Source: Polytrichum commune
Lineage: Eukaryota > Streptophyta > Polytrichopsida > Polytrichales > Polytrichaceae
Reading direction: 5' to 3'
Assembly: GCA_950295325.1 (NCBI GenBank)
Contig: OX485807.1
Span: 30,661,666 to 30,725,665, forward strand
DNA: 64,000 nt
Part shown: positions 6,001 to 12,000 of the stretch, piece by piece
Layout: each line of letters opens with the position of its first letter
Position numbering within the stretch: position 1 is the first letter of the stretch
Notes under the pieces: model-generated
Told to the model about the DNA's origin: nothing
The model's input: the letters and a program-made list of their open reading frames with translations, nothing else
The model's database searches: none
Made by a program: the position numbers and the translations under genes

Positions 6001-9000
6001 TTATTTAAATTGCTTGCTGGTTATTGCAATGTCTTGATACGTGTTTCTCATAAATGAACAAGTAGGTGGGTAAGTACCAGGATCAGGAAGTGGGTTATAT
6101 GCCAATAATGGCATTTTCCAGGATTGTGGTATGTATATGTCAGTAGTGAGTAGTGACACTTTGCAGTCACCGTCTTTGAGGGATCCTCTTAGGAGTTAAG
6201 TACTGCTTAAATTTAAATCTAGGAATCTATTTTCAGTTGTTGTCACAATGAAGTGTTATAATCTTGACACTGGTTAATATATATTCACTAACCTTTGATG
6301 TTTTTGGCAGCCTTGGGAGAGTGAGTTCATTGATTCACAACGTGTGTGGGCAGAGTACGCGCTAAAGAGGCAGGAAGCTCAGGCTCAGAATAGGAGATTG
6401 ACTTTAGAGGATCTTGAGGTTTGTGCCTATTGAGAACTCTTGAGTCTTCTGTTCATGAGAATTATTGGTAGTTTTCTGGTTACTGACATTTGTTTTGTTG
6501 TCCATCCAGTGATGACACTGAATTTATGTCAAACATATATCTCTAGTGTTCCAACTGGCGGTGGCAACTTCACTTTGCACTTATTTCAAAAAGCTTTTCA
6601 TGTTGAATTCTTATTATTTGAAGAGTCTTTCATCCTTTTATCTTTATTTGGGCTCCTTCTGTCCTTGCCTATCTTGTTACTTACTTTGAGAGAGTTTGTA
6701 AATGCAGGATTCTTGGGATAGGGGTATTCCTCGCATCAACACTCTGTTTCAGAAGGATCGGCACACACTAGCTTATGACAAAGGTTGGCGAGTGCGTACA
6801 GATTTCAAGCAGTATCAAGTCTTGAAACAGAATCCTTTCTGGTGGACACACCAGCGGCATGATGGAAAATTGTGGAATCTGAACAACTACCGAACAGATG
6901 TTATCCAGGCCCTTGGAGGAGTTGAAGGCATTCTGGAGCATACCTTGTTCAAAGGAACATAGTAAGTATTGACAAAACTTGCGCGCTGGTATATGTTATG
7001 TGTGGAGTCCCTCGGGTGGGAGGGAAGACTCATATGTTTGTGTCTGAAGGGTTTGAATTTCTCAAGCTTGTTTCTTGTTCAATGGAGCATTGATCTGTTT
7101 TTTTCTTTCAGAATTGGTCATGAGGGGAAAGAATTGGAGACTTAATAGTAGTTGATGGAGGTTTTGCTTGTTTAAATTCAAAGTGGTTTATTATGTCTAA
7201 GGAAATGTGCATGCAGCTAACAGATAGATGACTTCTTTTGATACAGCTTTCCAACATGGGAGGGTCTCTTTTGGGAGAAGGCATCAGGTTTTGAAGAATC
7301 TATGAAGTACAAGAAGCTCACAAATGCACAACGTTCTGGTTTGAACCAGATTCCAAATCGTCGCTTTACACTTTGGTGGTCTCCAACAATCAATCGAGCC
7401 AATGTGTATGTTGGTTTCCAAGTACAGCTTGATCTCACAGGCATCTTCATGCACGGAAAGATTCCTACTCTGAAGATTTCACTCATCCAGATTTTTAGAG
7501 CCCATCTTTGGCAGAAGGTGCATGAGAGTGTAGTGATGGATCTGTGCCAGGTGCTTGACCAAGAGCTTGATGCGTTGGAGATTGAAACAGTGCAAAAAGA
7601 AACTATTCATCCGCGAAAGAGTTACAAGATGAACAGCTCTTGTGCTGATATCCTTCTTTTTGCTGCTTACAAATGGCCCATGAGCAAGCCAAGCCTGGTA
7701 GCAGAATCTAAGGATGTATTTGACCAGAAGGCAAGCAACAAGTACTGGATTGATGTGCAGTTGAGATGGGGAGATTACGATTCTCATGACATTGAACGGT
7801 ACACTCGTGCAAAGTTTTTGGATTACACCACTGACAACATGTCGATCTATCCGGCCCCTACTGGTGAGTGTGACTCTTTATTCCCTGATGATGTCATCTT
7901 CAATTTCTTCTGTTGTTGTTTTGAGAATGTGCATGTCATGTGCAAGCCTGCTTGTGTGAGTGACAAGATGAAGTATTGTACCATTAAAGCCTGAATAAAC
8001 AGTGATGACAAGCATGTTCTGAGCAACTGGGAAATCATATAGTAGGTTGTCATCTGGGTGGTCTGTTCTGAGCAACAGAGAACCCACCTAGTAGTCTGTA
8101 ATTTCCGCAATTGAGATGGGTCTGGTCTTTGTGGCTGCAAAGATGGTTTACTGTACCACCAAAGCCTGAATAGTCGGTGGTGATAAGTATGTTCTAAGCA
8201 ACAGAGAACCTTCCTAGTAGTCTTTCATTTTTTGTGTGATAGAGTTTGGTGCGGTCTTTGTGACTGCAAAGATGATATACATAACCTTCAAAGCCTGAAT
8301 AATGAGCGATGACTAGAATGTTCTGAGCAACAGGGAACACACAACGCTGTCTTCAATATTGCATGATAGAGATTGGTCTGGTCTTTGTGGCTGCAAAGAT
8401 GATTTACTGTACCATCAAAGCCTGAATAATCGGTGATAATAAGTGTGTTCTGAGCAACAGAACACCTGTATAGTAGTCTGTAATTTGTTTGTTAGAGATC
8501 TGACTGGTCCTGGTGGCTGCGAAGATGATTTACTGTACCATCAAAGCCTGAATTAACAGTGATGAGAAGTATGTTCTGAGCAAAAGAAGACCTGTACAGT
8601 TGTCTGTAAATTGTATGATAGAGATTGGCCTGGTCTTTGTGGCTGCAAAGATGATATACTGTACCATCAAAGCCTGAATAATAAGTGATGAGAAGTATGT
8701 TCTGAGCAACAGGGAACCTACATAGTAGTCTTTAGTTTTGCGGGATGAACATCAGTCAGTTCTTTGTGGCTGCAAAGATGATATACTGTACCATCAAAGC
8801 CTGAATAAACGGTGATGAGAAGTATGTTCTGAGCAACAGGGAATCCACACAGTAGTCTTTAGTTTTGTGGGATGAAGATCGGTCCATTCTTTGTGGCTGC
8901 AAAGATGATTTACTGTACCATCAAAGCCTGAATAATCCGTGATGATAAGTATGTATTGAGCAACAGGGAATCCACACAGTAGTCTTTAGTTTTGCGGGAT

Positions 9001-12000
9001 GAAGATCGGTCAGTTCTTTGTGGCTGCAAAGATGATTTACTGTACCATCAAAGCCTGAACAATCGGTGATGACAAGTATGTTTTGAGCAACAGGGAACCC
9101 ACTTAGTAGTCTTGGATAAAGATCGGTTCATTCTTTGTGGCTGCAAAGATGATTTACTGTACCATCAAAGCCTGAATAATCGGTGATGACAAGTATGTTC
9201 TGAGCAACAGGGAATTCACACAGTAGTCTTTAGTTTTGCGGGATAAAGATCAGTCCATTCTTTGTGGCTGCAAAGATGATTTACTGTACCATCAAAGCCT
9301 GAATAATCGGTGATGACAAGTATGTTCTGAGCAACAGGGAATTCACACAGTAGTCTTTAGTTTTGTGGGATAAAGATCGGTCCATTCTTTGTGGCTGCAA
9401 AGATGATTTACTGTACCATCAAAGCCTGAATAATCGGTGATGACAAGTATGTTCTGAGCAACAGGGAGTTCACACAGTAGTCTTTAGTTTTGCGGGATAA
9501 AGATCGGTCCATTCTTTGTGGCTGCAAAGATGATTTACTGTACCATCAAAGCCTGAATAATCGGTGATGACAAGTATGTTCTGAGCAACAAGGAATTCAC
9601 ACAGTAGTCTTTAGTTTTGCGGGATAAAGATCGGTCCATTCTTTGTGGCTGCAAAGATGATTTACTGTACCATCAAAGCCTGAATAATCGGTGATGACAA
9701 GTATGTTCTGAGCAACAGGGAATTCACACAGTAGTCTTTAGTTTTGTGGGATAAAGATCAGTTCATTCTTTGTGGCTGCAAAGATGATTTACTGTACCAT
9801 CAAAGCCTGAATAATCGCTGATGATAAGTATGATCTGAGCAACATGGAAACCAAAAATATAATCTTCAATGTGGTTGGTGAGGAGCAAGTGTTTTGTGTT
9901 TAGTTGGCAGAGTATGTTTGGTGTACCCAAACTTAATTGAATTCACGCACAGAACACAATGGGAATGTTTTGAATCTACACTGTTGATTCTTTACTAAGT
10001 ACATATTTTGGTGGTGTGTATTTGCAGGAGTGATGATTGGACTGGATCTAGCTTACAATTTACATTCTGCATTTGGCAATTGGTTCCCTGGATCAAAACC
10101 ACTCTTTGCCCAGGCTATCAACAAGATTATGAAGGTATTGCAATTTTGTCTGCAGATTCTGTTGGGTGTTGAAGTCTCATTCAAACTGTCAGTGCAGTTA
10201 GTTGTTCTGAAATTACCCTACAGAAGACTCTAAGGTCATTGATAACACCTGTGCTTCTCATTCTGCAGGCTAATCCAGCCCTCTATGTGTTGAGGGAGCG
10301 TGTGAGAAAAGGTTTGCAGTTGTATTCTTCTGAGCCAACAGAGCCTTACCTGTCATCTCAAAATTATGGAGAGCTTTTCAGCAACCAGATTATCTGGTTT
10401 GTGGATGATACTAATGTGTATCGAGTGACAATTCACAAGACTTTTGAAGGGAATCTGACCACCAAGCCAATTAATGGTGCCATTTTTATATTCAACCCAA
10501 GGACTGGACAGCTCTTCTTGAAGGTACCACAAATCAATATGCAGATCGTCTGTTTTATAGTAGTAGACCATCCTTCCCAGAATTCTATCCGAGTGAATTC
10601 AGTTCTGCAGAATATGCAGTCACCATCAACATGATGAACCTTTTTCTGTATGTACATCTCAGCTTCTCATATTGGTGTTTGTCGACAGGTTATCCACACG
10701 AGTGTTTGGGCTGGACAGAAGCGTTTGGGTCAGTTGGCAAAGTGGAAAACAGCTGAGGAAGTAGCTGCCTTAGTGCGGTCCCTCCCAGTTGAAGAACAGC
10801 CAAAGCAGATTATAGTTACAAGGAAGGGAATGCTTGACCCTCTGGAGGTGCATCTGTTGGATTTTCCCAACATTGTCATCAAGGGAAGTGAATTGCAGTT
10901 GCCTTTCCAAGCTTGTCTGAAGATCGAGAAGTTTGGAGACTTGATCCTAAAGGCAACAGAGCCACAGATGGTTCTCTTCAACATCTACGATGACTGGCTG
11001 AAGACCATTTCATCATATACTGCATTTTCTAGACTCATCCTCATTCTGCGTGCTCTCCATGTCAATAACGAGAAAGCAAAGATGTTGTTGAAGCCTGACA
11101 AGACAGTTGTCACAGAGCCTCACCATATCTGGCCAAACCTCAATGATGATCAATGGATGAAGGTGGAAGTTGCATTGAGAGATTTGATTTTGTCTGATTA
11201 TGCAAAGAAGAACAATGTCAATACTTCAGCATTGACACAATCAGAAATTCGGGACATTATACTCGGTGCTGAGATTACCCCTCCTTCTCAACAACGGCAG
11301 CAGATCGCAGAAATTGAGAAGCAGGTTTGTAGCAATTCATTTCTTGTCACATAGTTGTCATATTTCTAGGAAGCTTTTGTACTTCTGAATTGCTTAGGCT
11401 AGTATACTGCAGTTGTGTTTCTCTAGACCTATTTGACTCAAACAAATTTTTATGCTACTTTGAGCACTTATGTAACTGCATTGGTCTCACCTGGAGTACT
11501 TCGTCTTACAGGCAAAGGAAGCTAGTCAATTGACCGCGGTCACTACAAAGACAACAAATGTTCATGGAGATGAGCTGATTGTGACTACCACCAGCCCATA
11601 TGAGCAAGCAGCCTTTGGCTCCAAGACAGACTGGCGTGTTCGAGCCATATCTGCTACTAACCTTTACCTGCGAGTCAACCATATATATGTCAATTCAGAT
11701 GATATCAAGGTAAATGCCCTTTACAATTAGAGTTTCAAGAGATGGTTACCACCTGACAGATGTTGAATATTTTAGGATTTGCAGATGGTGTTTTACTTCC
11801 TGAAGCTAATGTTTGACCTTTGCTTGGTTACAGGAAGCTGGATACACCTACATTATGCCCAAGAATGTTTTGAAGAAGTTTATCTGTATTGCTGATCTGA
11901 GGACACAGATTGCTGGATACATCTATGGGGTTAGTCCCCCTGATAATCCACAAGTGAAGGAGATTCGTTGCATTGTGATGCCACCGCAATTTGGCACACA

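Follow-up and report, generated by a model that had tools for sequence, protein, structure and literature searches.

A tandem array of probable snoR116-type box C/D small nucleolar RNAs within a PRP8 intron of Polytrichum commune

Considered here is a 64,000-nucleotide stretch of the Polytrichum commune genome (contig OX485807.1, positions 30,661,666 to 30,725,665, forward strand), hereafter the window, and particularly one intron within it, that of the gene for the splicing protein PRP8. With a probability of roughly 0.87, this intron holds, in tandem copies, a snoR116-type box C/D small nucleolar RNA (snoRNA), i.e., one which is spliced out, processed, and then guides methylation of U123 of 18S ribosomal RNA (rRNA). 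An earlier, sequence-only reading of the window had proposed, more generally, a C/D array yielding many copies of one methylation guide. That is still the best reading, given the snoR116 guide which the units carry, the register of that guide on U123, and the constraint that is seen across copies.

The order of elements within a unit is C box AAGATGA, 19 nt, D' box CTGA, 7 nt, C' box GTGATGA, 10 nt, and D box CTGA, that is, C and D near the ends with D' and C' inside, as is expected of a C/D snoRNA. From C to D spans 58 nt, which leads one to expect a length of about 66-70 nt for the mature RNA. The CTGA, GTGATGA, and CTGA which had been read in D'-C'-D order are indeed so arranged, with 12 of the 15 units matching in a four-box scan using normal spacings; nothing else matches on either strand of the window, and the chance rate, as estimated from shuffled sequence, is 0.025 matches per 64-kb strand. 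The C-like box had been placed instead at ATGATTT, which is mistaken: Rfam alignments of several C/D families, along with the fixed spacing, put the C box at AAGATGA, a 6/7 fit to RTGATGA (one mismatch). The supposed weakness of a C box without its final GA arose, that is, from placing this box 3 nt too far 3', as AAGATGA ends in GA. Boxes on their own are no proof in a 408-Mb genome, and it is guide, target, and constraint which carry more weight.

That these units form a 15-copy tandem array within the PRP8 intron, as first described, is agreed upon by three approaches. Tandem Repeats Finder (TRF) reports a period of 127 and 14.1 copies over 8064-9849. The D' context, AAAGCCTGA, is present 15 times over 7986-9802, with spacings between successive occurrences of 175, 129, 127, 126, 126, 127, 127, 127, and 117, followed by five of 127. 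A model of the core, lastly, finds 15 copies and one fragment, all on the plus strand, and no others within the window. Units are head to tail and mostly 126-127 bp long. Whole-unit identity is 71-84% among units 2-5 versus 96-98% among units 10-14, a gradient from which it follows that the 3' part of the array is youngest. The intron and its units, by window position, are these:

7864-10027, plus strand: PRP8 intron with the array; splice sites GTGAGT...TTTGCAG read directly, with PRP8-matching exons on each side
7965-8022, plus strand: unit 1, C to D box; oldest; core model 80 bits, flanks unalignable to those of other units, guide with one G-U pair
8061-8120, plus strand: unit fragment, D-box side and spacer only; core model 9 bits
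8140-8197, plus strand: unit 2, probably dead; boxes read AAGATGG (C), GTGGTGA (C'), and CTAA (D), and the guide has a mismatch
8269-8326, plus strand: unit 3; boxes kept, guide mismatch at nt 8
8396-8453, plus strand: unit 4; guide and boxes intact, C' with one mismatch
8522-8579, plus strand: unit 5, intact by four-box scan and guide pairing
8648-8705, plus strand: unit 6, intact by four-box scan and guide pairing
8775-8832, plus strand: unit 7, intact by four-box scan and guide pairing
8902-8959, plus strand: unit 8; D box TTGA, damaged
9029-9086, plus strand: unit 9; D box TTGA, damaged
9146-9203, 9273-9330, 9400-9457, 9527-9584, and 9654-9711, plus strand: units 10-14, intact and youngest, alike over the whole unit
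9781-9838, plus strand: unit 15, intact, final copy; the array's best match to Rfam snoR116, with a diverged 3' flank

The guide, UACCAUCAAA, is identical to the Rfam snoR116 consensus and is so in register, i.e., two nucleotides before D'. By the D'+5 rule, under which about 10 nt upstream of D or D' pair with the rRNA and the residue at +5 is methylated, it very probably directs 2'-O-methylation at 18S U123: its nt 5 faces U123, and that residue is a mapped 2'-O-methylated nucleotide (Nm) in three angiosperms. U123 of Arabidopsis 18S is methylated, with SnoR116 the assigned guide (PMC8053127 Table 1), and the same modification, Um123, is listed as well for tomato and tobacco (PMC11542601). 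Two separate 18S-derived fragments of this genome (C1:35250362-35250432 and C4:57504112-57504214, C1 and C4 being contigs) both read CTTTGATGGTAC at the guide site and carry the variant CUUUGAUGGUAC. With that variant, guides of units 4-15 pair at 12 positions in a row, all Watson-Crick (nt 2-13), versus 10 with the Arabidopsis form. Guide nt 2 is G in the array and C in the snoR116 consensus, and it faces C (C120) in the genome fragments and G in Arabidopsis. Pairing at nt 2 is retained, that is, because both guide and 18S changed, and this longer pairing suggests that guide and target changed together. Over 71 nt these fragments are 99% identical to a stretch which we take to be moss-like 18S; taken with PRP8 and the snoRNA, which are signs of a plant, this makes a nonflowering host such as a bryophyte likely. 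The interval from C' to D, only 10 nt, is what is available as a D-box guide.

When the assembly's DNA was searched for the host's own rRNA genes, nothing came up beyond fragments derived from 18S, one partial fragment of 25S, and a contig with foreign-looking rRNA. Among 18S-derived sequences there is also a dispersed, diverged piece found in at least a dozen copies on many chromosomes (C4:54340554-54340671, C7:14906569-14906686, C6:6199550-6199667, and others). As queried over 118 nt it is ~84-86% identical to 18S with differences that are common to copies, and it has the look of a repeat, mobile or dispersed, that was derived from 18S. The 25S piece (C2:38379741-38379819) is partial and diverged, 85% over ~75 nt, and sits within non-rDNA sequence. 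The foreign-looking contig, of 20 kb, bears a eukaryotic small-subunit rRNA (C22:12487-14111; RF01960, 1544 bits) that is distinct from plant 18S (~80-85% in its 5' part), and this contig probably represents a contaminant or an associated organism.

Constraint within the unit is strongest on boxes and guide. Across units 4-14 variable sites amount to 2 of 34 in boxes and guide, 10 of 27 in linkers, and 39 of 63 in spacer. Fisher tests on units 3-14 give p=7e-6 for functional versus spacer positions and p=0.014 for functional versus linker positions, values which serve as a guide only since copies share history. That the core is better kept than the spacer in older units, as had been asserted, is borne out by mean pairwise differences among units 2-7 of 0.127 and 0.304, respectively. 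All boxes along with a paired guide are kept in up to 11 of 15 copies, a count that includes unit 1 with its one G-U pair and weak terminal stem, and the remaining copies are decaying. Unit 2 has decayed jointly in C, C', D, and guide. The array's minus strand has short open reading frames, which were considered as possible coding sequence and set aside, as conservation tracks the plus-strand snoRNA elements.

The core is absent elsewhere in the genome, as seen upon genome-wide DNA search. The pattern GATGA-N(3-20)-TACCATCAAA-NNN-TGA has 12 matches in the genome, all inside the array, while a reversed control has none. The array is therefore the only source of a Um123 guide, as far as the assembly and this exact pattern show.

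The alternative which survives best is that a once functional intronic snoR116 has been swept into a neutral minisatellite expansion, with only one or a few copies yielding RNA and the number of copies being without function. At issue here is just what copy number does, and this alternative is compatible with the guide's identity as snoR116; we consider it a real, if minority, possibility. Consistent with it are the loss of D boxes in units 2, 8, and 9, the guide mismatches of units 2 and 3, and the near identity of the youngest copies, as recent neutral growth would predict. A single intronic gene, furthermore, is enough for other plant snoRNAs, e.g., U60 in FIB1 (PMC8053127). The guide is nevertheless unchanged in the diverged copies 4-9 despite the divergence of their spacers, and it is found at no other locus of the assembly. 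Selection on any single copy would be insufficient to hold so many diverged copies.

As to the host, the exons on either side of the array belong to PRP8: In PDB they match Prp8 from many eukaryotes, with E values as low as 6e-72. PRP8 is single-copy in this assembly, which offers no second copy as an outgroup. The array's intron had been described as about five times longer than any other in the gene, which holds up, it being 2164 bp long with the second-largest gap between PRP8 exon matches ~415 bp. The query behind that comparison is a sequence which we take to be human PRP8. No Telo-box, Site II element, or TATA was found in this intron; an independent promoter for the array was therefore rejected, and expression as driven by the host is the likelier.

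Plant intronic snoRNAs are freed from spliced introns, with polycistronic ones released via endonucleolytic cleavage between units and then trimming (PMC4660826). For the snoR116-type array this would mean that PRP8 pre-mRNA is spliced and the array enters the intronic path of snoRNA release, that cuts between units divide the excised intron, and that each unit is trimmed back to its C/D core. Each core would then assemble with 15.5K, NOP56, NOP58, and fibrillarin, with the resulting particles presumably 2'-O-methylating U123 of 18S rRNA. The array itself probably expanded from one intronic gene by local unequal exchange, most recently near its 3' end. A stronger version, in which PRP8 is the sole source of the Um123 guide, copy number has been raised ~fifteen-fold, and methylation output is thereby tied to PRP8 splicing, rising and falling with it (a dosage link between ribosome and spliceosome), is a speculation that we think unlikely to be correct.

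Certain points weigh against a snoR116-type array directed at U123. One has to do with Rfam, to which the sequence-only reading had looked for a check and which answers in two ways. At gathering thresholds nothing matches the array. Below threshold the best family for unit 15 is plant snoR116 (RF01422), and over its full length, at 22.6 bits, which is far under the gathering score of 47 that is the standard for membership. With a relaxed threshold many unrelated C/D families also match weakly, in the same phase and on the plus strand only, a result which counts in favor of the array. The array, that is, is snoR116-type by its guide and predicted target, and is not filed as a member of RF01422.

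Folding is a second such point, a C/D snoRNA being expected to have a terminal stem (K-turn) between C and D. Short complementary flanks had been noted and are present: UGC/GCA adjoins the boxes (14 of 15 units), with UUCUUUG/CAGGGAA further out. Both stems, terminal and outer, are short, however, and their duplex energy is no better than that of shuffles or of other offsets. The outer stem was accordingly rejected as strong evidence, as other offsets of the repeat fold equally well and the spacer folds as its shuffles do. The two further points concern the target. The host's 18S target is read from 18S-derived fragments, the true rRNA genes being outside of the searchable assembly, and the numbering rests on what we take to be the Arabidopsis 18S sequence. 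In that sequence the residue facing guide nt 5, which is the third U of UUUGAUGGUA, is presumably position 123.

It might be supposed instead that these RNAs act in cis and tune PRP8 splicing, for example by base pairing to the PRP8 pre-mRNA or by keeping proteins bound to a lariat that is stable. The host is a core spliceosome gene, which fits, and animal intronic snoRNAs have been reported to regulate host splicing via pairing with neighboring intron sequence, at least as cited in PMC12309372. The conserved guide, however, is already accounted for by 18S U123, and no cis target was found, although no search was aimed at one; cis action strikes us as quite improbable. Least credible of all is that the motifs are coincidental, with an ordinary minisatellite multiplying C/D-like words: tandem duplication does multiply any motif that is present once, a few hundred chance four-box matches are expected in 408 Mb, and folding is unexceptional, but coincidence fits poorly with a snoR116 guide in register, 12 bp of pairing with 18S of the host type where an Nm is known, and conservation that is specific to elements.

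What is known already, then, is the snoR116 guide type and the intronic plant snoRNA; what is unusual is the arrangement, as an array in one intron of a spliceosomal gene. With Arabidopsis SnoR116 (RF01422) the array shares its C/D-box nature, the D' guide core UACCAUCAAA, the distance from guide to D', and the predicted target residue. It differs in its shorter D'-C' and C'-D segments, in the G at guide nt 2, and in being 15 tandem copies in one intron. The eutherian SNORD115/116 and SNORD113/114 arrays are likewise large, local tandem repeats of one intronic C/D family, though in mammals these have imprinted, non-coding hosts and consist of orphan snoRNAs (PMC11028025). Here 15 copies are head to tail within one intron, as read from the DNA sequence, the host is protein-coding, and the guide has an rRNA target. 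Large single-family C/D arrays have been described as eutherian innovations, with others expected in understudied genomes (PMC11028025).

Among plants, U60.1F and U60.2F of FIB1 and FIB2 introns are comparable as C/D snoRNAs that lie, without a promoter of their own, in an intron of an RNA-metabolism gene (PMC8053127). Monocistronic and polycistronic intronic snoRNAs of plants are described as well, in ribosomal-protein and ribosome-biogenesis genes (PMC4660826). The hosts given in these papers are fibrillarin, ribosomal-protein, and ribosome-biogenesis genes, whereas here the host is PRP8, with one guide repeated 15 times. Plant polycistronic clusters share with the array the presence of several snoRNAs per transcript, but those described in PMC4660826 are independent transcription units with Telo-box and Site II promoters, elements which the array's intron lacks. 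A literature search, with most subscription papers outside of its scope, found no description of PRP8 as a snoRNA host or of a comparable array.

The array would provide a plant example of a large single-family C/D array, located in one intron of a splicing gene that is essential, with a guide that has a known rRNA site. As copies are of graded age, with elements conserved and some copies dying, selection on snoRNA elements becomes visible. From the splicing of one intron, furthermore, a ribosome-modifying guide could be obtained in many copies. The array also makes it possible to ask whether the number of snoRNA copies determines how far one rRNA site is methylated.

Two other tandem repeats are seen by TRF in the window. 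One, at 39337-40079, has a 256-bp unit, 2.9 copies, and 91% matches. The other, at 56627-56921, is G+C-rich with 42/83-bp units, 7 copies, and 92-96% matches.
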